DNA of 38,487 bases from Deltaproteobacteria bacterium. Lineage in GTDB: Bacteria; Desulfobacterota; Desulfarculia; JACQYL01. Each line of letters begins with the position of its first letter. Positions within the stretch are counted from its first letter, which is position 1. A program made the position numbers and the translations under genes. The stretch covers positions 1-38,487 of the forward strand of contig JACQYL010000031.1 in the NCBI GenBank assembly GCA_016208165.1, written 5' to 3'. The notes below the pieces were generated by a model. It saw only the letters and a list, made by a program, of their open reading frames with translations. It was not told where the DNA came from and did not search any database. Shown here piece after piece: positions 9,904 to 38,487 of the stretch.

Positions 9904-10993
9904 GGGGGACGGGGTTGATTTTGGGCGTTTCTATTCTTCAACGGACCATGCATTATCCGAGGCAATCTGTCCGCCTCTGCTGACAGCCCGGCTGACCGCC
10001 GATTTGCTCAACCCAAGTTTCCTTGCCACCTCGGTTGCGGGTAAGCCCAATTCATGGACAGCCCAGTAGCTCAATACGCTTCGGGCGGCCACCCGAGTCG
10101 GCTGTTTTCCGGGAATGACAATCTCCTTCGCATCCAGGCCGAATAATTGCCCAACGCGTTTGGACAACCGGTCGAACGAGTACCCTGTTTCCCGGAGACG
10201 ATACCGGCGATCCATCTGCTCGGAAACCCGGTCCAACACTTCTTCCACAAAATCGCTGTCACCTAGAATTCGTTCATCCCCTTTCAAATGGATCTGCATT
10301 TCCCGCATGGATTTCAAAACGCCCCACCCGCCGACGCTTCTTAACAAACCACCTCCGGTCAATTCCGGCCTTCGGCCTTGGGTCAGACCTTTTTCAACAA
10401 ACTCACCGTAAAGCTTTCGGGCGGATCGTTTGGAATGGTCAAACAGGCTGAGAACCGTTTCGGTGTCCTGCCATTGATGGGTCACTTTCCCCATGAGTGC
10501 ATGGTGTCCGGAAAATGGATGCTTATTGAGGGTTTTCAGATCAGAGACAATCCCCGCACGGATCGGATTTAAGTGGATGTAGCGCACCAGTTCCAATAGA
10601 TACGTGTCTTGCCGGCAGAGAATCGATTTGTAGCGATTTTGAAACAACCTGCCGTATCGCCGATGCCGCCGGTTGAACGTCACGGCATAGCCGGTGAGCA
10701 AGCGCTGCATGACCTTGGCGATCGGTTCTTTTCCTGTTTTCAACAGCAGGTGGAAGTGATTGGGCATCAAAGCCCAGGCAAAACAGGGTGTTGCGGTCTC
10801 AAGCAGCAGTTTCGCCAGGCGATCGACAAACCGGTTTCTGTCGGTATCGTCACGGAAGATGTTGCGCCGTTCGATCCCCCGGCAGATGATGTGATGCAAC
10901 GCCCCCGGCGCATCGATGCGTGCTTTTCGTGGCATGAGGTCTCTATACCATGGATGATGAAACAAAGAAACGCGCAAAATCAACCCCGTCCCC
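9904..10993 (-). mobile_element. Full-length RAYT element with terminal inverted repeats (class I)
   Basis: Left end GGGGGACGGGGTTGATTTTG (9904-9923, continuing to 9932) and the right end at 10966-10993 are inverted copies with about one mismatch over 28 bases. They enclose one transposase gene on the minus strand. The left repeat overlaps the transposase stop codon region and lies 59 bases upstream of the dehydratase start, so the insertion may have separated that gene from its promoter. This is the probable source type for the shorter class I elements at 2414 and 4725. Confidence 0.8.
9931..10935 (-). CDS. REP-associated tyrosine transposase (RAYT, Y1_Tnp family)
   Basis: This 334-residue transposase has an N-terminal Y1 (IS200/IS605 TnpA-like) nuclease domain (about 10-130) with the HUH pair H60 and H62 in MPNHFHLLLKTG. 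The conserved RYIHLNPIRAG segment contains Y119, the likely nucleophile. RAYT enzymes cut single-stranded DNA at palindromic repeats. The C-terminal region ends in a helix-turn-helix (LPATEVARKLGLSKSAVSRA). The ATG before PRKARIDAPG is chosen; an upstream in-frame extension is only repeat DNA. The gene is intact and alone among six related copies in this window. Confidence 0.9.
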   Translation of the reverse strand: MPRKARIDAPGALHHIICRGIERRNIFRDDTDRNRFVDRLAKLLLETATPCFAWALMPNHFHLLLKTGKEPIAKVMQRLLTGYAVTFNRRHRRYGRLFQNRYKSILCRQDTYLLELVRYIHLNPIRAGIVSDLKTLNKHPFSGHHALMGKVTHQWQDTETVLSLFDHSKRSARKLYGEFVEKGLTQGRRPELTGGGLLRSVGGWGVLKSMREMQIHLKGDERILGDSDFVEEVLDRVSEQMDRRYRLRETGYSFDRLSKRVGQLFGLDAKEIVIPGKQPTRVAARSVLSYWAVHELGLPATEVARKLGLSKSAVSRAVSRGGQIASDNAWSVEE

Positions 10994-11021
10994 ATTTTCA
11001 CGCCCCGTCCCCATTTTCACG
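10984..11021. repeat. 19-base tandem duplication at the RAYT element end
   Basis: CCCCGTCCCCATTTTCACG occurs twice in a row (10984-11002 and 11003-11021). The first copy contains the outermost bases of the right terminal repeat of the RAYT element, so the duplication straddles its boundary. It may record an insertion or slippage event. Confidence 0.8.
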
Positions 11022-29647: not shown

Positions 29648-29860
29648 TCACGGGTAGGCCACCAATTTAAAAACAGACGCCGCCAGACCGGCAATGGCGG
29701 CGCCCACTCCCGCCACAAACCACCATAAAAACTTGATCTGTGCTCTGGGGCAGGACGCCTGCTGCTGCCGTATTTTGGACAGGATTCCCGTTTGGGGACA
29801 GGTCTTGCCATGCTCGTCAAGTCGGCGCTCGATATTGCTAAGGCGATCGCCATCGGTCAT
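29648..29860 (-). CDS. Small phage membrane protein (XhlA-like layout)
   Basis: This 70-residue protein has a charged, probably helical N-terminal half (RLSNIERRLDEHGKTCPQTG) and one C-terminal membrane segment (FLWWFVAGVGAAIAGLAASV). This is the layout of small accessory lysis proteins such as XhlA. Its start overlaps the holin stop in an ATGA arrangement, so it is translated with the holin. Function is inferred from size, topology and position. Confidence 0.7.
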   Translation of the reverse strand: MTDGDRLSNIERRLDEHGKTCPQTGILSKIRQQQASCPRAQIKFLWWFVAGVGAAIAGLAASVFKLVAYP

Positions 29861-30297
29861 TTTTTCCTCCCCTTAATCGCCTCCGCGAGTCCACTCCGGG
29901 TCAGCAGCCGCTCTCCGAACCAGAACCCCAGCACCAGAATCAGCGCCGGCTTGAGCAGCTCCATGTGTTCGGGGGTGAAAACCATATTCGTATACGGCAG
30001 CCGGATCCCCATCCACCCGCACACATACGCCCCGACGATCAGGTAGGTCAGCATCGGCCGGATGCTCGATCGCAGCCACACGAGCGTCTTCGGGATCTCT
30101 TTAGCCCGGCCTTCGTAGTCCAGAACAAAATTCCGGAAGGCGCTTTTCTCCTCCAAAGCCATTCGCTGAGCCATGGCGCCTGCTTCGAGTTTGGCCTTGA
30201 CCTTCTCCTCCTCGCTCATACTCGCCGGGAGGAAATGATCCACCACCTTATTCACGATCCCCGTCACGCCATCGATAATCGGCAACGCTGGAGACAT
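29857..30297 (-). CDS. Phage holin, 3-TM type
   Basis: This 146-residue protein resembles the 3-TM holin superfamily: an N-terminal helical part (SMSEEEKVKAKLEAGAMAQR), a central WLRSSIRPMLTYLIVGAYVC segment typical of the family, and further membrane segments ending in LILVLGFWFGERLLTRSG. Holins form membrane lesions that release the endolysin at the end of phage growth. It overlaps the following 70-residue gene by four bases. No endolysin gene is recognisable in the window. Confidence 0.8.
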   Translation of the reverse strand: MSPALPIIDGVTGIVNKVVDHFLPASMSEEEKVKAKLEAGAMAQRMALEEKSAFRNFVLDYEGRAKEIPKTLVWLRSSIRPMLTYLIVGAYVCGWMGIRLPYTNMVFTPEHMELLKPALILVLGFWFGERLLTRSGLAEAIKGRKK

Positions 30298-30517
30298 GTC
30301 TGTTCCTCCTGAAGGCCCGCCACGACAGCAGGCTCCGGACCGCCGTGCAGGCTGTTGAAATATATACTATGCCCCTCTGCCCGACATCCCAGGCCGCCCA
30401 CAACCAGCCAGGCTGCGCCGGGATCGCCGCGATGAGCACCCACCGCTCGCGGTCCCAAATCAGCCGCATGGCCGATACGCTCCCCAGGGCCGCGATGGCA
30501 ATCTGATCCCGGGTCAT
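30248..30517 (-). CDS. Small phage protein, function unknown
   Basis: This 89-residue frame begins MTRDQIAIAALGSVSAMRLI and contains a Trp-rich middle (IPAQPGWLWAAWDVGQRGIV). The ATG overlaps the stop of the upstream gene as ATGA, which supports this start over a longer frame reaching 30727. Its 3' end overlaps the holin start by 50 bases, which is unusual, so the C-terminal part may be untypical. Confidence 0.55.
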   Translation of the reverse strand: MTRDQIAIAALGSVSAMRLIWDRERWVLIAAIPAQPGWLWAAWDVGQRGIVYISTACTAVRSLLSWRAFRRNRHVSSVADYRWRDGDRE

Positions 30518-30909
30518 CGGGCCTGCCCCGGCGCTGTAGGGGCGGGCGCGTCCCGGCATAGCGCAGCGACGCCGGATTGCGAACCGCCCGTGGCCTCCGC
30601 CAACGCCGCCGTAAGGTTCTCCTTTTCTCGAGCCAGACGTGCAATGCGGTTGTTGGCCATCCGCACCATGACAATATGATTCCCAAAGGAGTTCAAGACC
30701 GCCCGAGGTATCAACCACCTTCGCCATCTCCTGATGCCGTGAGCCTCCAACTCCTTTTTCGCCAGAGCCACGGTCAAATCTACCTGATCGGCCGGCTCGA
30801 TGGTGCTCCGGCCGCGCAGCGCGATGGTCAGTTCCCGCTCCCCCAGCAGATTCGCCAACTCGCCGGACGTCAAAGCATTCTCTTCCTGCGGCAAAGTGTA
30901 TGCATCCAT
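30514..30909 (-). CDS. Phage protein, function unknown
   Basis: This 131-residue protein is mostly helical, with a basic middle (KKELEAHGIRRWRRWLIPRA) and a coiled-coil-like stretch (MANNRIARLAREKENLTAAL). It lies between the tail hub gene (nine bases upstream) and a small overlapping gene, within a single transcription unit. I do not recognise the family. Its place after the tail hub fits a small assembly or lysis-associated protein. Confidence 0.7.
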   Translation of the reverse strand: MDAYTLPQEENALTSGELANLLGERELTIALRGRSTIEPADQVDLTVALAKKELEAHGIRRWRRWLIPRAVLNSFGNHIVMVRMANNRIARLAREKENLTAALAEATGGSQSGVAALCRDAPAPTAPGQAR

Positions 30910-30918
30910 GAAATCCTC

Positions 30919-33900
30919 CTACGTTAACGACGCTGCCAATCCTGTTTTGACGGTTCCATCCGAATATTTTACTTTTACGTAGAGCCCGTTGAGCGCCTCG
31001 CTCAAATAGAAAGAAAAGTCCCCGTTGGATAGCTCCCCGTTGGAAACCGCCGATCCTTCCACATGCATTACCACGTGATCGGCGGGTCGTAGGTATACAT
31101 TACCCACGGACTGATCGAAAGTGATATAGTTGGAAGCGTCCCGACCAAATGATTCGGCGAAAACTGAGGACCAGTAATAGGCGGAATCGCCTAAATCCAG
31201 CGTTCCGCCGGAAATGGGATCAATATCTTTATATGCTAGGATCTTTCCGCTTTGAACATTTAGGACGTTGCTGCCACTGATATTGAATAAAGCGGATGGG
31301 ACTCCCACGCCAGAAACGTAAAAATAGATTTCTCCAAACCCGTATGATGGCGTACCAAGAGAAAGTTTTCTTAATCCATCAGTATGCGGTCTAAAGACTA
31401 ATTCACTGGAAGAACCGGAATCATATATCCTGCACTTATCTGTCCCGCTATAAGTGAACACAATTTCGGCCGGGTTTGATGGGTCACCCGTCAGAATAAT
31501 ATCGCCACCCGCCGCCATGGTGAGCTTGTTTCCACCCGAGATCCCGATATCGGCGGTGATGGTTCCGGCCGTGATCTTATCCGCCGTCAGGCTCGCTATT
31601 TTCGCGCTCTCGATGGTCCCGTTCGCGATATGGGCATTAGTGACCTGCAGACTTCCAATATGAGCCGACGTGATCTGAGCGCTGCCGATCTTTGCCGAGG
31701 TGATGGCCGCGTTCGCAATCTGCGTGGTGCCCACGGCCCCATCGCCGATGTCTCCGCTGCCCGCCTTGCGGGGAGTCCCCGCAACCCCGGCGCACGGGGA
31801 GCTTTCGTTCCCCGTCAGATCCAGCGCCGAAACCGTGTAGGTGTAGGCGGTTCCCATCGTCAGGCCCGTGGCGTCCACGAAGCGGCTGACGTCCACCCGG
31901 GCGATCTCCGTGCCGCCCCGGCGCACCACATACCGCGCGAAATCGGCCTCCGTGTTATCGTTCCAATCGAGCGAACAATTTCCCACGTTGCCGGTCACCG
32001 CCAGCCCTGTAGGCACGCCCGGCGCGCTCGCATCCCCCGGAGCCAACTGCGCCGAAAGTGTCGGATTGGTCTCGGACTCGATCCCGAACCCGTTCACCGC
32101 CACGGCGACCAGGTCGTATTCCATGCCCGGCGTCAACCCGTCCATGCGCGCCTGCCATAGGCCCGATCCCTGATCCTCGGCGTCCTGCCAAGTGTACACC
32201 TCTTCGCCGTTGACTCGCCGCCCGAACTTCATCCTCGAAAAATTCTCGGCATCCTCGGTCCCCTGCACCGCCTCGACCACAAAATACGCCAGGGTGTTGC
32301 CGTCCCCGGCCTGGTACGTCCCCGTCGAATCGATGGCCAAATCCGTCGGATCGTCCGGAGGCGTCCGGCTCCAGTCCGTGGTGCCCGAGTCCCCGCCGTC
32401 CCCCGGCAACGTCCCCGCATCGTACGTGTAGATATCCTCGGAATAGACCGACGCCGTGACCTCGACCCGGCTCCTCGACTTCCGTATCCGTTCGATGCGG
32501 TACAGCGCCCCGTCGATATGCCGGGCCGGAACGTACAGCGTAATCGCGTCCCCCACGCTCAGGCTCCGGGCGTCCTGCCCCAGCGTCAAATCGATCCGTT
32601 CGGCCGCATACGTGAGCAGCCGCTGCCGGAAACACGCGATCCGATCCGCCGTTTCCTTGTCCTGTACGTAGTTTAGCCGCTCGACGCGGCCCTCGCCGAA
32701 ATCCGCGTTGACCGTCCTCGATTCGGTCATGAACTCGAATTTGGCGTCCCCGTCCGGAGCATACTCGAAGCTTATCGTTTTCACCGCCTCCCGCACGGAA
32801 GGCCAATACCGATCGCCCACCTCGATAATGTTCGTTTGCCGCCCGGCGGTGCCTTGCGTGAACGTGGCCGCGCTCGTGGAGTCATATGCCCCGTCCACCT
32901 CGATGGTCCATTCGCCGTCCGCGTTTCGGTCGAGCCGCCCCCTGCAATAACTCAGCAGTTCGTCCACCACTTCCTTGGTCTTGACGGCCGCCGAAAGGGG
33001 AACGTCGCACAAAAGCGCATCGATGGCCGAAACCGCCGCCGCTGCCTCGAAGCTCGCGGCATTCACGCTCTGATCCCGTCCCCAGGTCCCGTCCGACAGA
33101 ATGTGCTCGATCAGGGTCACCGGGTTGCGCTCGGCCTCCGTGCCGCCCAGCTCCAACCCGTACCAGTCCGCCTTCAGCTCGTAATATCGCCCCGAAAAAT
33201 CCCGCTGCTGCCAGCCGTTGCCCGTGAATTTGACCGATGCGTACCCCTCGTATGGTGAGCCTGTCGAACCATCGTAACAGACGACCGTCGCATCCATCTC
33301 GGTTTCGCCCACAACCACATCGTCACGGTAAATGACGGCCGTGCTCATCTTATTGACGTTGTTGGTCTCCGTGGTCCCGAAACCCACCAAGTAATGAGCC
33401 TCGTTGTTGACATAGTCCTCTTTGATCAGCGTGAGCGGCAGTTTGCGGCACCGGCCGAGGGGAATATTGATTGTCCGGCCGATGGACTCCTGAGGTGCGT
33501 CCTCGAACTCTTCGACCGTCACCGTCTTCGAACCGAGCAACCCCTCCAACAGGTCCGGATCGCGAAACGTCACCGTGAGCGATGCTTCCTTGCCCACGGA
33601 AAACGAATCGACCTTGCCGATCAGTCGATATACCTGCTCGGACGTCAGACGCGTCCTCGATGCTGCCCCGGCCCACGAAACTCCCGCCTCCCAGGCCACC
33701 CCGGCCTCCCATGATCGCGCCTGACCCACCGTCAACGTCTCGGTATCGAAATCCGCCCTCGTAATCGTGACCCGGGCCCCGCGAATGTCCACCGGCGTGT
33801 CCCCGAAAAACGTGTCCGTCAGCTCGCCGGCGAAATCGTTCAATCGAATGGATACGTCCCCGTGGTCCAGGTACCCATACAACAGCTCCGTAGCCGCCTC

Positions 33901-34029
33901 GGACACGTCCGGAAACTCGGCCACGCCCCGGTAGAACGCCTCATCCGAATCGTAGGAATCCACCGACGAATAGCGGTAATGCGTCGCGGCCTTGATAATG
34001 TCGATGAGAATAATTGGAGTTGTAGGCAT
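30919..34029 (-). CDS. Phage tail hub / tip protein with FN3 domains (gpJ-like)
   Basis: This 1,036-residue protein has a gpJ-like architecture. The N-terminal part (1-540) includes IEHILSDGTWGRDQSVNAAS and DAITLYVPARHIDGALYRIE, typical of tail hub/baseplate proteins. Two fibronectin type III-like domains follow (about 560-655 and 665-750; SLDWNDNTEADFARYVVRRG). A helical repeat, GTTQIANAAITSAKIGSAQI and following, is typical of the C-terminal part of host-specificity proteins. A beta-rich receptor region (about 830-1036) ends the protein. It sits at the tail tip and should contact the host. No clear ribosome site precedes the ATG; a 131-base gap with strong hairpins separates it from the tail-fibre gene. 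Confidence 0.85.
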   Translation of the reverse strand: MPTTPIILIDIIKAATHYRYSSVDSYDSDEAFYRGVAEFPDVSEAATELLYGYLDHGDVSIRLNDFAGELTDTFFGDTPVDIRGARVTITRADFDTETLTVGQARSWEAGVAWEAGVSWAGAASRTRLTSEQVYRLIGKVDSFSVGKEASLTVTFRDPDLLEGLLGSKTVTVEEFEDAPQESIGRTINIPLGRCRKLPLTLIKEDYVNNEAHYLVGFGTTETNNVNKMSTAVIYRDDVVVGETEMDATVVCYDGSTGSPYEGYASVKFTGNGWQQRDFSGRYYELKADWYGLELGGTEAERNPVTLIEHILSDGTWGRDQSVNAASFEAAAAVSAIDALLCDVPLSAAVKTKEVVDELLSYCRGRLDRNADGEWTIEVDGAYDSTSAATFTQGTAGRQTNIIEVGDRYWPSVREAVKTISFEYAPDGDAKFEFMTESRTVNADFGEGRVERLNYVQDKETADRIACFRQRLLTYAAERIDLTLGQDARSLSVGDAITLYVPARHIDGALYRIERIRKSRSRVEVTASVYSEDIYTYDAGTLPGDGGDSGTTDWSRTPPDDPTDLAIDSTGTYQAGDGNTLAYFVVEAVQGTEDAENFSRMKFGRRVNGEEVYTWQDAEDQGSGLWQARMDGLTPGMEYDLVAVAVNGFGIESETNPTLSAQLAPGDASAPGVPTGLAVTGNVGNCSLDWNDNTEADFARYVVRRGGTEIARVDVSRFVDATGLTMGTAYTYTVSALDLTGNESSPCAGVAGTPRKAGSGDIGDGAVGTTQIANAAITSAKIGSAQITSAHIGSLQVTNAHIANGTIESAKIASLTADKITAGTITADIGISGGNKLTMAAGGDIILTGDPSNPAEIVFTYSGTDKCRIYDSGSSSELVFRPHTDGLRKLSLGTPSYGFGEIYFYVSGVGVPSALFNISGSNVLNVQSGKILAYKDIDPISGGTLDLGDSAYYWSSVFAESFGRDASNYITFDQSVGNVYLRPADHVVMHVEGSAVSNGELSNGDFSFYLSEALNGLYVKVKYSDGTVKTGLAASLT

Positions 34030-34045
34030 ATGTTATGTGTGTTTC

Positions 34046-34158
34046 TCGGGGGATGCACCGCATCCCCCGACCCCTCTATTGTTGCGGTCCTTTTGGGATC
34101 GCCGGGCGATCCCAAAAGGACCGCCGCATGGGGGTCTGGGGGCCATCGGCCCCCGGAG
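34046..34158. repeat. Three strong hairpins between tail fibre and tail hub genes
   Basis: Three inverted repeats fill this gap. The first has 11-base arms (34046-34056/34060-34070) around GGGGGATGC. The second has perfect 20-base arms (34084-34103/34105-34124) beginning GCGGTCCTTTTGGGATCGCC with a one-base loop. The third has 7-base arms (34138-34144/34148-34154). All are long enough to affect the transcript. They may be mobile palindromes rather than terminators, since similar modules fill other gaps of this region. Confidence 0.8.
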
Positions 34159-34160
34159 GT

Positions 34161-35036
34161 TTATCTCCCCTCCAGCGCTTCTACGCGCTGGGCCAATTCT
34201 TGAAACCCCTTGGTCAGCAGGCTCACCATATTGGACAGGTTACGCCGCCGGACGGTCTTCTTATCCTCGACCGTCTCGACCAGCACCCCGGCGGGCAGGG
34301 TTCCGTGATCCAACTCGCCCCAGCCGCGGCCGTCCACGGTGTCCGGCTTGGCCGAAATGCTTCGGATGGCCGCGACCGCATCCCCGGCGAACGCAGGGGT
34401 CCGGTCGGTGAACGTGGCCGCCGAGCAATCGCCGAGGATATACAGATTTCCAGCGTCCGCCGTCAGGTACATGGCGATCCCCGCGGCCCCGTCCGTGAAC
34501 CATTGGAGCCGTGTCTGGTTATTGGGGATATAGTACAGCCATTGGACATTGTACGAGCCGCCCGATTGATTCCGCTGGAGCATGTTTCCAACGGACTGGT
34601 TCGCCGAATGGACGATGCGGATGTACTGCGCCCCGGCCCTCGAACACGCCAGGTCCAGCGGGTAGGTGGCCGCCGAATTGTTCAACGTCACACTGCCCGT
34701 GGTCACGAAATTGGACGTTGCGTTGGTCCAGTCGATATGCTCGTTGGCCACGAATCCGGTTAGGCTGTCGTGGTTGAAATCGCTTTCGATGATCGCCGCG
34801 GTGGCTTCTTTCCACCGGCCGTTATTGGCCCCGGCATCATCGGGCTTGATCACGTACGGATGAGCCGCAACGGTTTCCGCCGCGCTCGCCGTTCCGTCAT
34901 ACCGGAACACATAAAACCGCTGCGACACCGTCGCGAACGCCATGTCCCCGTCCGCCGCGCCACCCTCGAACCACGTAATCGCATCCAGTGCGTTCGCGCC
35001 CCCGCCGGTCAATGCCGTGCATTCGTATACGTTCAT
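34161..35036 (-). CDS. Phage tail fibre-like protein
   Basis: This 291-residue protein is beta-rich with a fibre-type segment SDFNHDSLTGFVANEHIDWT, similar to repeats preceding the shaft of phage fibres. The C-terminus (KKTVRRRNLSNMVSLLTKGF then QELAQRVEALEGR) looks like a coiled coil that trimerises. GAGAGG precedes the ATG. It lies immediately upstream of the tail hub gene, as expected for a receptor-binding or fibre protein. The exact family is not determined. Confidence 0.7.
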   Translation of the reverse strand: MNVYECTALTGGGANALDAITWFEGGAADGDMAFATVSQRFYVFRYDGTASAAETVAAHPYVIKPDDAGANNGRWKEATAAIIESDFNHDSLTGFVANEHIDWTNATSNFVTTGSVTLNNSAATYPLDLACSRAGAQYIRIVHSANQSVGNMLQRNQSGGSYNVQWLYYIPNNQTRLQWFTDGAAGIAMYLTADAGNLYILGDCSAATFTDRTPAFAGDAVAAIRSISAKPDTVDGRGWGELDHGTLPAGVLVETVEDKKTVRRRNLSNMVSLLTKGFQELAQRVEALEGR

Positions 35037-35051
35037 GCTGCCTCTCGGTGG

Positions 35052-35102
35052 GACAGGCGTCCCGCCTGTCTGTTCATCGGGCGCATCGCGATGCGCCCCT
35101 AC
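35052..35102. repeat. Two palindromic repeats between GH-A and tail fibre genes
   Basis: GACAGGCGTCCCGCCTGTC (35052-35070) and GGGCGCATCGCGATGCGCCC (35079-35098, followed by CTAC) are perfect or nearly perfect palindromes. The second belongs to the GGGCG...CGCCCCTAC family described for this region, with core GCATCG. Confidence 0.85.
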
Positions 35103-35104
35103 AA

Positions 35105-36283
35105 TTATTTAACCGACGCCCCGTTTTGTAGGGGCGGTTCGTCGCAAATCCCGAGCACCGTCGAGGGGCGAACCGCCCACGCGGCGTCCGCCAAAATCAT
35201 GTTCTCCAATCTTCGTTCCATCGTCCATCCGGCCGGCAAAAAATCGTCCGATCGCCACACGAACCCGAGCAGGGCCACCGGTGTTTTGCCGTACGATCCG
35301 CACGCGTCCCAGATTTGTTGGATCATATTCCACTTGGCCGCGTCGGTTGCGTTCGGATTGATGTGGTTGGCTTCCGTAACGATCCACGGCTTATCCCCCG
35401 TGCGGGAAGCTATGCCGTGAATCGCACGTTCATCGTCGCTGTCGATATCGTCCGCATAGTAGTGAAAATTGAACAGGTCCGTGTATTCGAGCATGCCTGC
35501 GGCGATGAGCCGTTTCGTTACCCCGTTGAAGTAGGTTTCCGTAATGGACGTAATGCCCGAATTGAGCACCAGGACGTCCGGATCGATGGCTTTAATGATC
35601 GCGCGCGTATCGCGCAGGAATGTCACGTATTCGGCCTCGGTGATCTGTTGGCCCGTGGGTCCGACCATCCACCGGCTGGGCTCCCACGCTTCGTTCCAGA
35701 TTTGCCAGGCGTAGACCTTGCCTTTGCCCTGGGCGGCCATCCGTTCGACATAGGGCGTCCAATCTTCCCGAAACCATCGTTCGTCCGTAGGGCCGGGATC
35801 CGCGTAATTCGAATACCGGGTGGTGTCCTCGATGCGGCCGATCAATTTGATGCCGAACGCGTCGCAATAATCGATCAGGTCGAATACGTGAGGCCTCGTG
35901 TCGTCGCGGTCCACCCACCATTTGAAGAAATTGGTGACCGCCCACGCGCCCATCGCGTTCATGCGACGGAAATCGTCCTCTCCGAGATACCGAAATTCGA
36001 TCTGTTGCGCGGGATCCAGCGAAATGCCGTACGCCCGCGCCAGGGGAAACCACCCATGTGGGTCGATCGATTTAATCGCCGGCGATTCGACCTGGTACAT
36101 TTCCACCGGCAACACGTGCGCCCCAAACCGGTCGTGCGTCAATGGCGCCTCGGGCGTCCCGCCGTCCCCTCCGCACGCCGGGATGAACGCCAAAACCGCG
36201 CAGAGAATCAACACCCAACGTAGGGGCGCTTCGCGAAGCGCCCTCGCGAAAACCCTACCGATTCGTGTGATCCCGTGTCTCAT
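35105..36283 (-). CDS. Clan GH-A glycoside hydrolase-like lipoprotein in the phage module
   Basis: This 392-residue protein has a lipoprotein signal (LCAVLAFIPAC, Cys37) and a TIM-barrel glycosidase pattern: YAWQIWNEAWEP places the acid/base at E198 and KPWIVTEANHINP the nucleophile at E304, the strand 4/strand 7 arrangement of clan GH-A (GH39/GH5/GH10-like). The substrate is unknown. The ATG chosen follows GGGGAGG, which comes from a repeat unit; a longer frame reaches 36415 but is only repeat DNA. Signal-peptide residues 14-20 are encoded by a palindrome, and about the last 20 residues by another repeat. A secreted glycosidase amid tail genes suggests a lysogenic cargo gene or a capsule/biofilm-degrading function. 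Confidence 0.7.
   Translation of the reverse strand: MRHGITRIGRVFARALREAPLRWVLILCAVLAFIPACGGDGGTPEAPLTHDRFGAHVLPVEMYQVESPAIKSIDPHGWFPLARAYGISLDPAQQIEFRYLGEDDFRRMNAMGAWAVTNFFKWWVDRDDTRPHVFDLIDYCDAFGIKLIGRIEDTTRYSNYADPGPTDERWFREDWTPYVERMAAQGKGKVYAWQIWNEAWEPSRWMVGPTGQQITEAEYVTFLRDTRAIIKAIDPDVLVLNSGITSITETYFNGVTKRLIAAGMLEYTDLFNFHYYADDIDSDDERAIHGIASRTGDKPWIVTEANHINPNATDAAKWNMIQQIWDACGSYGKTPVALLGFVWRSDDFLPAGWTMERRLENMILADAAWAVRPSTVLGICDEPPLQNGASVK
35128..35178. repeat. Palindromic repeat forming the C-terminal codons of the GH-A gene
   Basis: GTAGGGGCGGTTCG (35128-35141) and CGAACCGCCC (35169-35178) flank an insert with CCCGAGCACCGTCGAGG. The repeat lies inside the gene end, so residues of about 370-387 (AVRPSTVLGICDEPPLQ) are translated repeat. 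A close copy at 37946-37996 is non-coding. Confidence 0.85.
36224..36243. repeat. Palindrome inside the GH-A signal peptide
   Basis: GGGCGCTTCGCGAAGCGCCC is a perfect 20-base palindrome of the same family. In the minus-strand gene it encodes residues 14-20 (RALREAP), the positive N-region of the signal peptide just before the hydrophobic core. Confidence 0.9.
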
Positions 36284-36292
36284 GGTTTTCCT

Positions 36293-36448
36293 CCCCTGGG
36301 AACGCCGAGCCCCGGCTCGGCTCTTCGCGGGCGGTTCTCGAACCGCCCCTACGGGTGTCGGTTTGTTGTTCCGTAGGGGCGACCGGCAGTCGCCCTGTTT
36401 TCGGGCGAATGCCATTCGCCCCTACATCCCCTGGGAACGCCGAGCCCC
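36293..36448. repeat. Repeat cluster between tail protein and GH-A gene
   Basis: The gap is almost wholly repeats. A start-codon-type unit (36293-36321, palindrome GCCGAGCCCCGGCTCGGC) lies 9 bases from the GH-A ATG. Then come GGGCGGTTCTCGAACCGCCC (36329-36348), GGGCGACCGGCAGTCGCCC (36377-36395), GGGCGAATGCCATTCGCCC (36403-36421), and a truncated start-type unit (36428-36448) that runs into the stop codon of the tail gene. Cores differ while the GTAGGGGCG/CGCCCCTAC flanks are kept. Confidence 0.85.
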
Positions 36449-37221
36449 TACACAATTTCCACCAATTTCCATCGATTCGTCGAAAAATAACTATCCGCCT
36501 CCCACTTGATGCTCAGCGGTTTTTGAATGCGCACCAGGTACGCCTTTTCCGTGCCGCCGCTGTGCCACCCGTTCTCGTAGAAGATGAACGGTTGCCCCGG
36601 CTGCACGGCGTTGATGGCGTGAAATGTGGCCTCGTGGGTCTGCCTGGCCTGGAATTCGAGTTCCGCCTCGAACCGCATGCACAGGCCCAGGATCAAGGTC
36701 TCGATGCCGCCGCCGTCCAGCTCGACCTCTTCGTGAGGCCATCCCGGCGCGCGTTCGTAATTGTATTGGGGGTTGATGGGCAGTTCCGCCGCCGTGGACA
36801 TCAACGCCACGACCCCGATGCGATAGAATCCCTCGCCGTCCGTGCGGGTTTGCACGGGAATGACCAGGCGCATGTACCGATAGGCGAAGCCGGTCAGCGC
36901 GATAAAGGCTTTGCGTTTGAGCAGCTCGGCGTCCTGTGCGATGGTGGCTGCCAGGGTGAAGGACGGCGCTCCCCACGAATCCGTTTCGTTCCCCTGGATC
37001 GTCATGGACGTGAAATTCACGCCGCCGATATAGACCGCCGCTATGGCCGTGGCCGCCGCGCCCGTGTCCAGCACGATGGTCGTCTGCAGCGCGTTGGTCG
37101 ACCGATACTCGGCGCTCGGTTTCGACAGGTCAGCGATATTCTCCGCCGGAAATGACGCGTGCTCCGTCGACGCCGTGGGCGTGAAGTCTACGAACGAGTA
37201 TGAGAGAATGAAATTGGACAT
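36448..37221 (-). CDS. Phage minor tail protein-like
   Basis: This 257-residue protein has an N-terminal beta-sandwich (10-120; TIVLDTGAAATAIAAVYIGG, FAYRYMRLVIPV) reminiscent of discoidin-type folds. A second domain (about 155-257; ERAPGWPHEEVELDGGGIET, PGQPFIFYENGWHSGGTEKA) ends in WEADSYFSTNRWKLVEIV, like minor or distal tail proteins. It lies upstream of the fibre and hub genes in the same direction. There is no signal peptide, in contrast to its neighbours at 35105 and 37556. The family is not determined. The TAG stop overlaps a truncated repeat unit. Confidence 0.65.
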   Translation of the reverse strand: MSNFILSYSFVDFTPTASTEHASFPAENIADLSKPSAEYRSTNALQTTIVLDTGAAATAIAAVYIGGVNFTSMTIQGNETDSWGAPSFTLAATIAQDAELLKRKAFIALTGFAYRYMRLVIPVQTRTDGEGFYRIGVVALMSTAAELPINPQYNYERAPGWPHEEVELDGGGIETLILGLCMRFEAELEFQARQTHEATFHAINAVQPGQPFIFYENGWHSGGTEKAYLVRIQKPLSIKWEADSYFSTNRWKLVEIV

Positions 37222-37237
37222 CGTCGATCCTGCTATC

Positions 37238-37336
37238 GGGCGATTCTCGAATCGCCCCTACAAAACATTCGCGCCCCGATCCGTAGGGGCGGTTCGCGAA
37301 CCGCCCTGTTCCTGGGCGAATGTTATTCGCCCCTAC
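37238..37336. repeat. Repeat cluster upstream of the minor tail gene
   Basis: Three palindromes: GGGCGATTCTCGAATCGCCC (37238-37257), GGGCGGTTCGCGAACCGCCC (37287-37306) and GGGCGAATGTTATTCGCCC (37314-37332), with GTAGG/CCTAC flanks. The third overlaps the end of the 53-residue gene and supplies its last codons (RRGE) and TAA stop. Confidence 0.85.
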
Positions 37337-37484
37337 GCTGTTTCAAATCCCAAACATCCCGCACGATGGGAAACGACATCATGAAATCGTCCGGCTCGGC
37401 GCCGTCCAGAATCTCCCGGATCGCCTCTAATTGCGCGTTGGCTATGACCAACCGATTCTCCAATTCCCGTATTCTCTCGGACAT
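37323..37484 (-). CDS. Small coiled-coil phage protein
   Basis: This 53-residue protein reads MSERIRELENRLVIANAQLE (coiled coil), then an acidic stretch and PIVRDVWDLKQRRGE. The ATG lies six bases after a repeat unit that provides the GGGG ribosome site; the longer frame to 37553 is repeat DNA. The final codons come from a downstream palindrome. I do not recognise a family. Confidence 0.6.
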   Translation of the reverse strand: MSERIRELENRLVIANAQLEAIREILDGAEPDDFMMSFPIVRDVWDLKQRRGE

Positions 37485-37490
37485 CGATGC

Positions 37491-37549
37491 CCCCCTGGGA
37501 ACGCCGAGCCCCGGCTCGGCATATTTCGGGCGAATGCTATTCGCCCCTA
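37491..37549. repeat. Start-codon repeat unit plus palindrome
   Basis: The unit CCCCTGGGAACGCCGAGCCC onward (37491-37519) ends six bases from the ATG of the 53-residue gene. It is followed by GGGCGAATGCTATTCGCCC (37527-37545) with the CTAC flank, which reaches to within a few bases of the stop of the next gene. Confidence 0.85.
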
Positions 37550-37555
37550 CCATTT

Positions 37556-37903
37556 CTAAAAACTCGGCAACGGCAACACGGCCAGCCCGGTGGCCATACC
37601 CGCCGGCCGTTTTCGATGGTCATAGGACGTCAGGGCGTATTCGTTGGTCATGCCGCCGAAATCGTTGAACGCCTTGATTTTCCATTCGATCTTCCTATCC
37701 TCGGGCACGTTCTCCCAGACGTATTCCGTCACGTTCCCGACGTCCCGCGCCTCCCACGTGGCCCCACCGTCCACGGTCATGGACAGCGTGTATCCCGTGG
37801 CGCGCGCCGCCGGATCCCAGGACAATCTGACATCCTCGGCCTGGGCCTCAACAGCCATCCCAACAGACACCAGCAAACAGATTAACCAACAGATTCGTTT
37901 CAT
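37556..37903 (-). CDS. Small secreted FN3-like protein
   Basis: This 115-residue protein has a signal peptide (MKRICWLICLLVSVGMAVEA, cleavage after about AQA) and one fibronectin type III-like domain (LSWDPAARATGYTLSMTVDG then WEARDVGNVTEYVWENVPED, IEWKIKAFNDFGG). Secretion is unusual for a gene within a tail module. The ATG lies 9 bases after a repeat unit whose GGGGAGG acts as ribosome site; the longer frame to 38053 is repeat DNA. It may bind carbohydrate or a surface component; its role is unknown. Confidence 0.7.
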   Translation of the reverse strand: MKRICWLICLLVSVGMAVEAQAEDVRLSWDPAARATGYTLSMTVDGGATWEARDVGNVTEYVWENVPEDRKIEWKIKAFNDFGGMTNEYALTSYDHRKRPAGMATGLAVLPLPSF

Positions 37904-37912
37904 TGTGTTCCT

Positions 37913-37996
37913 CCCCTGGGAGCGCCGAGCCCCGGCTCGGCAAATGGGCGGTTCGTCGTAGATCCTGAGCCCAGTCGAAGGGCGAACCGCCCCTAC
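37913..37996. repeat. Start-codon repeat unit plus long palindrome
   Basis: Unit 37913-37941 has palindrome GCCGAGCCCCGGCTCGGC and lies 9 bases before the ATG of the secreted FN3-like gene. The adjacent repeat 37946-37996 has arms GGGCGGTTCG and CGAACCGCCCCTAC around CCTGAGCCCAGTCGAAGG, the same type as 35128-35178. Confidence 0.85.
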
Positions 37997-38061
37997 AACG
38001 TTCCCCCCTGCGATCGGTCCGGATCGTGAAACGATACGGGACGATCGCCGCAACAGGCGGT

Positions 38062-38084
38062 CCGGGGGACCGCCGGTCCCCCGG
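38062..38084. repeat. Perfect hairpin downstream of the right-edge gene
   Basis: Arms CCGGGGGACC (38062-38071) and GGTCCCCCGG (38075-38084) surround a three-base loop. It lies 10 bases after the stop of the gene at the right edge and may act as a transcript hairpin; no T run follows. Confidence 0.8.
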
Positions 38085-38093
38085 CGTCTTCTT

Positions 38094-38487
38094 CTATTTC
38101 ATCGGTTTCAAATTCCGATCCCACAAAATCCCCTCCGAATCCTCGGGCCGAAATCGGCCGGGATACATCTCCTCGAGCTGCTCGGGCGTGACCAGGTTCT
38201 CGGCCGCGTAGAACCACACGGGCAGGCCGAACGTGTCGAACGTGTCCAGGTCAAAATACCGGCGCAGGTGCACACCGTGGACCTGGATGGCCCGCAGAAT
38301 TTCATTGTACGCGATGGCCCGGACGGCCTCCTCGGTTTCGGGCGATAGCGCGGACAGGTCCGCTTCGGTCAACGGGATCAGATGAAAAACGATCTCCCGA
38401 TCATAATTCACGCGTACGTCCGTCAAATCCGCCTCGGGCGGAAACTCGATAATGAAATGGGCGTTCTCGGCGAACTCCCCGGCTTGC
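38094..38487 (-). CDS. Phage protein, 5'-truncated by the window edge
   Basis: The frame reads through the right edge without a start, so at least 131 residues are present. Residues visible include FAENAHFIIEFPPEADLTDV, then REIVFHLIPLTEADLSALSP and LEEMYPGRFRPEDSEGILWD. An internal TTG (38426) could be a start but the sequence upstream reads equally well as protein. It is rich in acidic residues and lacks a signal peptide. I do not recognise its family; position suggests a tail-assembly protein. Confidence 0.6.
   Translation of the reverse strand, partial: QAGEFAENAHFIIEFPPEADLTDVRVNYDREIVFHLIPLTEADLSALSPETEEAVRAIAYNEILRAIQVHGVHLRRYFDLDTFDTFGLPVWFYAAENLVTPEQLEEMYPGRFRPEDSEGILWDRNLKPMK

Follow-up and report, generated by a model that had tools for sequence, protein, structure and literature searches.

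The closest described relatives of the repeats analysed here are the repetitive extragenic palindromes (REPs) with a GTAG tag and the REP-associated tyrosine transposases (RAYTs, also TnpAREP) that accompany them. The repeats lie in a stretch of 38,487 nucleotides, hereafter the window, which is contig C31 (JACQYL010000031.1) of a 5.69-Mb deltaproteobacterial assembly (GCA_016208165.1; contamination 4.41%). A sequence-only reading of positions 34046-38084 had described palindromes with fixed flanks and interchangeable cores there. We consider it highly probable, at roughly 0.85, that these are GTAG-tagged REPs, non-autonomous and processed as single strands by a TnpAREP of the subclass 2.4 type, the core being the lineage-specific part tied to the transposase lineage.

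Four papers describe comparable systems. Di Nocera et al. (2013, PMC3733652) defined a super-family of GTAG REPs that resembles our repeats in its GTAG tag, its stems of 6-13 bp, the complementary changes between sub-families, the head-to-head dimers, heterodimers and intragenic copies, and its occurrence in several phyla; the main text does not print GTAGGGGCG, the motif shared by our repeats, and its accessible portion does not mention placement in phages. The subclass 2.4 TnpAREP REPtrons (Quentin et al. 2018, PMC6006769) share the GT[AG]G foot, a long stem with basal G-C pairs, double-foot forms and a REP that the transposase gene carries in frame between its HuH and Y motifs. In-frame and double-foot REPs have thus been published for subclass 2.4, and that part of our observations was therefore already known; phage-borne REPs are not described in the accessible part of that paper. 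Assays of the E. coli TnpAREP and its bacterial interspersed mosaic elements (PMC8266576) found that GTAG and the lower-stem bases are needed and that the upper stem can be swapped for its complement, which offers a reason for the constant foot and outer stem of our repeats. The E. coli REPs differ in needing a stem bulge, whereas the repeats here are perfect stems, as in group 3. Finally, the inverted REP pairs called REPINs depend on a RAYT, as our elements may, and the paper modelling them (PMC8049555) regards replicative horizontal transfer as unlikely, with the RAYT needed and not seen on plasmids; here, in contrast, many viral stretches carry paired REPs and yielded no RAYT. Because the repeats are of a published kind, their core pattern can be explained without a new copying machine, and it is their setting that matters.

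Anatomy of the repeats in the window

The window holds 12 copies of GTAGGGGCG, compared with a mean of 0.31 and a maximum of 3 in 100 shuffles. Eleven of them lie between 35094 and 37996, bearing out the eleven or more repeats with shared flanks that had been noticed from the letters, and one lies at 30536. The pattern GTAGGGGCG-N(4-12)-CGCCC gave nine closed hairpins and none in shuffles. These carry the core types that had been listed, GCATCG, GCTTCG, GGTTCG (two), GAATGC type (three), GATTCT and GACCGG, and two further long-loop variants are of the GGTTCG type. GTAG stands on one side only in all 12 copies, and each unit is therefore a hairpin with a tagged foot. Several units are arranged head to head as dimers, including the heterodimers 36373/36403 and 37283/37314. 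A scan of the window with Rfam gave 0 matches at the gathering threshold. The units are as follows.

30536-30589, plus strand: degenerate long-loop GTAG REP, within the minus-strand open reading frame (ORF) 30514-30909, by eye; outside the interval of the earlier reading
35079-35102, minus strand: GTAG REP, core CATCGCGATG, closed-hairpin pattern
35128-35178, plus strand: GTAG REP, long-loop GGTTCG type, in frame with ORF 35105-36283, at its 3' end
36220-36243, plus strand: GTAG REP, core CTTCGCGAAG, in frame with ORF 35105-36283, within its N-terminal signal region
36329-36352, minus strand: GTAG REP, core GTTCGAGAAC, closed-hairpin pattern
36373-36395, plus strand: GTAG REP, core ACCGGCAGT, left half of a head-to-head dimer with 36403-36425
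36403-36425, minus strand: GTAG REP, core AATGGCATT, a core type with six genome copies, all within the phage module described below
37238-37261, minus strand: GTAG REP, core ATTCGAGAAT, closed-hairpin pattern
37283-37306, plus strand: GTAG REP, core GTTCGCGAAC, left half of a head-to-head dimer with 37314-37336
37314-37336, minus strand: GTAG REP, core AATAACATT, closed-hairpin pattern
37528-37550, minus strand: GTAG REP, core AATAGCATT, closed-hairpin pattern
37946-37996, minus strand: GTAG REP, long-loop GGTTCG type, 87% identical to 35132-35178

Three of the copies lie within reading frames and the others in gaps. With gap limits set by hand, GTAG REPs make up 241 of the 739 non-coding bp of 34030-38093, and all palindrome families combined make up 570, the additions being TGGGAACGCCGAG repeats, two compound palindromes and a short palindrome at 35045. 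Palindromes are present in each of the six intergenic gaps at 34-38 kb. The statement that the repeats fill every gap thus holds when several families are counted and not for the GTAG REPs alone, and the interval that encloses the eleven repeats begins, at 34046, with a different compound element lacking the GTAG foot.

Across the whole genome the closed pattern is dispersed in high copy number, with 112 strand matches compared with 3 for a reversed-letter control, and the stem-loops, 20-40 bp long, bear an unpaired GTAG at one foot. The figures below for 81 elements derive from 100 of the 112 matches and from a closed pattern that demands the outer CGCCC; among the elements so listed, 62 are single-footed and 19 double-footed. 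Their inner cores form Watson-Crick pairs at 302 of 333 positions, a share that averaged 58% and never exceeded 66% when the 3' arms were re-dealt; restricted to the 43 distinct cores, the share is 84%, against a mean of 55% when re-dealt. In at least 120 viral stretches, requiring only the foot GTAGGGGC, 473 of 681 feet close as a paired hairpin, compared with 0 of 112 for a control foot. The cores differ with pairing kept, as the sequence-only reading had proposed, and its flanks are conserved far beyond the window, in the whole genome, in relatives of the same class and in RAYT loci of named genomes; neither broken pairing in most copies nor flanks limited to the window were seen. Genomes of the class, among them G019, G004, G031 and G052, have the same foot, and in each a core of its own prevails, GGGTTTATCCC being that of several and AGGCATGCCT that of G052. 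Many of the own-genome copies are located within RAYT ORFs.

RAYT genes and the cores that accompany them

In the relative G031 (locus L185), a RAYT gene is bordered on each side by a REP with the GTAGGGGCG-type foot, the two copies being inverted relative to each other. A search of our own genome with the G031 protein revealed RAYT genes at sites previously known only as REP matches (19 matches, several of them degenerate or fragments). The GTAGGGGCG REP occupies an internal gene position in 13 of 17 inspected RAYT loci, and many of these also have an upstream REP, which, where present, lies shortly before the start codon. The other REP is inverted; it sits in frame some 290 bp inside the gene, with the HuH part on one side and the tyrosine part on the other, and is translated as GGSRTAPT, GVLQYAPT or VVGAGLKPAPTT; its core varies by RAYT gene and is of the GTTCG, TATTG or GGTTT type. 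A HuH/Y1 gene flanked by the same REP is thus found both in our genome and in L185. The best NCBIfam match of our RAYTs is REP_Tyr_transpos (REP-associated tyrosine transposase; E 2e-16), and the L185 RAYT scores above the NCBIfam cut-off. Pfam Y1_Tnp had yielded five genes in the genome, none near a GTAG REP, and the reading that the transposase is absent was overturned by the protein query.

Units like those of the window recur at such genes. The core of the 37283-37306 REP is also found upstream of and inside RAYT genes, and long-loop forms resembling 35128-35178 stand upstream of the RAYT genes L199, L201 and L204. One copy, L203 (G000:C122:18312-18815), looks chimeric: its first ~35 residues and upstream REP are of the GTTCG lineage, and the remainder and the internal REP are of the TATTG lineage.

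The repeats might also be ordinary miniature inverted-repeat transposable elements, moved by an insertion-sequence-family transposase with terminal inverted repeats, as they are short and non-coding with inverted termini. In our elements, however, the unit comprises the hairpin and nothing more, 62 of the 81 listed have a one-sided GTAG foot, and the same REP stands in and beside RAYT genes, so that we give this explanation almost no credence.

The association of core and transposase extends beyond this genome. Among the RAYT loci of named genomes, the best 80 of 470, from many phyla and chosen by similarity to our own copies, the match encloses a GTAG hairpin in 59; almost all of these have the GTAGGGGC foot, and their cores are diverse. 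The in-frame reading of the internal REP refers to the own-genome copies. The internal and the flanking REP have the same arm in 23 of 35 loci (2.35 when shuffled, maximum 10). On a RAYT tree built with the REP-coded residues cut out, the core labels change 25 times, compared with 46.8 times when shuffled, and 0 of 200 shuffles was as low. The GTTCG-core clade spans six phyla (Pseudomonadota, Chloroflexota, Calditrichota, Planctomycetota, Nitrospirota and a deltaproteobacterium ranked Myxococcota by NCBI), named as in the record titles, with binning errors of metagenome-assembled genomes possible. Since cores track transposase lineages, the arms differ together mainly because different REP lineages sit side by side, and the "interchangeable core" is mainly a REP lineage that is copied as a unit.

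A REP unit consists of the GTAG foot and a hairpin with the outer stem GGGCG/CGCCC, common to the lineages. In the mechanism that we propose, single-stranded REPs would be processed by RAYT/TnpAREP. Both arms would differ at once where a whole REP takes the place of another or joins it, and paired point mutation would not be the chief route. Of the two explanations that the sequence-only reading had offered, selection for the stem fits, as the transposase of REPs reads a folded single strand, and the other, a copying that would restore the second arm, need not be invoked.

Such copying could take the form of a template switch across the palindrome (quasipalindrome correction), which would write one arm onto the other and need neither selection nor exchange. 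Perfect 28-bp palindromes do occur among the 19 double-foot elements, and some orthologous phage REPs (L072/L093 versus L115/L124) differ in one pair that is altered on both sides, with both flanks conserved. Within three core lineages (48 elements), however, the arm change was one-sided in seven cases and two-sided in one, which is the opposite of the pattern that steady arm-to-arm copying would leave; moreover, cores follow the transposase phylogeny and the same cores recur across phyla. We regard the template switch as improbable.

Several observations weigh against the assignment to TnpAREP-processed REPs. No transposition event was observed. Our RAYTs fall below the curated cut-off of NCBIfam NF047646 (48-60 versus 80 bits), and subclass 2.4 was assigned by features, not by the published subclass profiles. 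The core labels GACC, AACC and GATT scatter on the RAYT tree, and no RAYT with the phage-specific cores AATRNCATT or CATCGCGATG was found in the RAYT loci examined. Some core changes at orthologous phage sites, as between L072 and L115, affect the loop-proximal pair alone, on both sides, and look like true compensation.

The phage head-tail module

From 29.9 kb, C31 encodes holin-like and tail-tip proteins, and contig C39 of the same assembly encodes terminase, portal, scaffold, P22-like coat, tail terminator and tail tube. The two parts appear to form one late phage module, with a putative join suggested by the fitting gene direction. What had been called a tail module is better described as a phage head-tail module that apparently continues on C39. 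This module, 24.4 kb or 0.43% of the assembly, holds 25 of the 81 listed elements (binomial p 3e-39) and none of the 19 listed double-foot elements. The exact 24-mer of the 35079-35102 REP recurs at C39:6221-6244 and C39:8156-8179 and at no other place among the own-genome matches listed, and the core type of the 36373-36395 REP is also found in C39 and in the viral loci L068, L110, L117, L128, L130, L139 and L171. The core AATRNCATT has six copies, all in the module and all on one strand, a result unchanged at two mismatches, and a search of 62 further genomes of the class did not find it. As judged by eye, its copies in the window and on C39 have three different head-to-head left partners, GACCGGC, GTTCG and AGGCCCCC. 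Among the commoner cores it is the only one confined to the module (6/6). We rejected the idea that every core of the phage is private to it: the module shares GTTCG, TATTG and GGTTT with the rest of the genome, and 7 of 13 copies of the AGGCCCCCGTGCCT/GGCCCCCCGTGGCC family lie outside C39.

Mis-binning of repeat-rich contigs could make the contrast with the host an artefact, and the contamination of the assembly and the restriction of some cores to C31 and C39 are in keeping with it. The contrast holds within C31 itself, though, with nine strict hairpins in 34001-38487 and none in 1-29500; the GTTCG, TATTG and GGTTT cores occur both in the module and in the remainder of the genome; and the crowding belongs to phage DNA, whichever the host. 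We therefore give mis-binning little credence.

Sister phages were identified by coat identity: L056 (92%), L057 (69%) and the more distant L058 (46%); queries with portal, tail-tube and window proteins found no further ones. An element similar to the 30536-30589 REP is present in L056 at 4004. Comparison of the gaps with L056 revealed palindromes in both phages, mostly different ones. In the gap before the tail tube, C39 has the core GGGTTTCAAACCC and L056 the core GGTTCGAGAACC, the flanks matching at 22 of 25 bases on the gene side and at 11 of 25 on the other, so that one REP seems to have been truly exchanged for another at a fixed site, as judged from the aligned gap. Several phage dimers likewise differ in one or both partners between related phages.

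The same comparison bears on a different explanation, in which selection keeps the hairpins as RNA elements of a late phage operon (transcript ends, stabilisers or processing sites), any hairpin serving and its identity turning over. The palindromes in all six gaps and the mostly different ones in the gaps compared with L056 suit this role, as do the broken pairs in viral REPs (G-T 34 versus A-C 17) and 19 terminator-like matches compared with 7.8 in shuffles. Yet the L057 tail-tube gap has no GTAG REP and L058 no GTAG REP hairpin anywhere, and GTAG REPs are therefore not required; three window copies sit inside ORFs; and G-T pairs would be tolerable in a single-stranded DNA hairpin too. An RNA role as the cause of the pattern is unlikely in our judgement, though by no means negligible.

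Such REPs are carried by many other viral contigs. The head-to-head dimer pattern matched at least 120 viral stretches, the densest with more than two per kb, in a set that was selected by the pattern and has no background rate for viral DNA. PHROG searches on five of these contigs, with two proteins each, gave portal, terminase or protease matches on three, a phage transposase on one and weak matches only on another. The RAYT profile, which strongly finds the own-genome copies, found none on 123 viral loci, which are partial contigs. A blastn search with a 97-bp REP cluster gave no match among INPHARED phages and PLSDB plasmids. Among the matches listed, orthologous phage sites showed the same core in 125 cases, one difference in 66, two or more in 39, absence in 28 and no element detected in 242; contig pairs are not independent and poor alignments are included, and we used single cases only. 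Clean-looking cases of presence and absence are L153 versus L074 and L154 versus L167, phage relatives about 70-93% identical and thus not at strain level. One site in the terminase gene, apparently a hot spot for insertion, carries different REP dimers in L126 (5643-5735), L064, L169, L178 and L153 and has no dimer in L074, and in L126 a REP dimer is nested in a copy of itself inside this gene.

If GTAG REPs are mobilised as proposed, a host TnpAREP might copy them in trans into replicating phage DNA, where insertions would survive mainly between late genes and rarely in frame within them; phages would gather REPs from successive hosts and might deliver them to new ones. Spread of REPs by phage is plausible. 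We propose more tentatively, and with somewhat less than even expectation, that temperate phages are both carriers and a breeding ground of REPs: lacking a RAYT, they would acquire several REP lineages through the transposases of one host after another, maintain private ones such as AATRNCATT, hand REPs on and exchange them at fixed sites. If this is true, elements thought to be inherited mainly vertically would spread replicatively and horizontally, and core cassettes would be truly interchangeable. REP-crowded phage modules in which a RAYT was looked for and not found, a phage-confined core and the pairing of one core with its transposase across six phyla make the assumption about transfer in PMC8049555 directly testable; the phage evidence bears on that claim without settling it. 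In the literature on REPs in phages we found no report of REP-crowded phage modules, with most subscription journals and preprints outside the coverage.

Neighbouring genes and further palindromes

The other features of the window are the following.

9931-11001, minus strand: Y1 transposase, a RAYT relative with a C-terminal helix-turn-helix, without flanking GTAG REPs
29857-30297, minus strand: holin-like protein (phrog_3427 1.3e-4, phrog_6637 1.8e-5)
30919-34029, minus strand: phage tail-tip-like protein, 1036 aa (PHROG tail tip / tail fibre, best 3.9e-11)
34046-34157, no strand: compound palindrome of a second family, with a GGGGGATGC hairpin, a variable central palindrome at 34084-34124 and a GGGGGTCTGGGGG hairpin
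35105-36283, minus strand: secreted enzyme-like ORF with two in-frame REPs, possibly a glycoside hydrolase, as guessed by eye
36448-37221, minus strand: phage-module ORF between REP clusters, no family assigned in family searches including PHROG
38005-38086, no strand: second-family compound palindrome as judged by eye, with its right-hand hairpin at 38062-38084

For ORF 35105-36283, the longer reading 35105-36415 gave no Pfam match at 0.01. The Y1 transposase at 9931-11001 was considered as the mobiliser of the REPs and rejected because no GTAG REP adjoins it. Its gene is flanked by inverted GGGGACGGGGTTGATTTTG stretches (by eye), resembling published "TIRYT" genes, and two long ORFs similar to it are found on contigs C11 and C48.

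The second palindrome family has a layout of its own, a GGGGG..CCCCC hairpin followed by ACCCCC and then by a long palindrome that is different in every copy. The outer bases adjoining the hairpin also covary (ct/ag, cc/gg, tt/aa, tc/ga). Further sites are located in L036 (3380-3470, 7279-7480, 9500-9590 and 13629-13905) and in L056 and L057, and in an orthologous gap of C39 and L056 the first hairpin is kept and the central palindrome replaced. The family was considered phage-only under a strict pattern (4/4 in phage), which a relaxed pattern did not uphold (only 6/11). A third repeat, CCCTGGGAACGCCGAGCCCCGGCTCGGC, adjoins REPs at 36293-36321, 36428-36446, 37492-37520 and 37913-37941, three of these copies being near-complete and one truncated.

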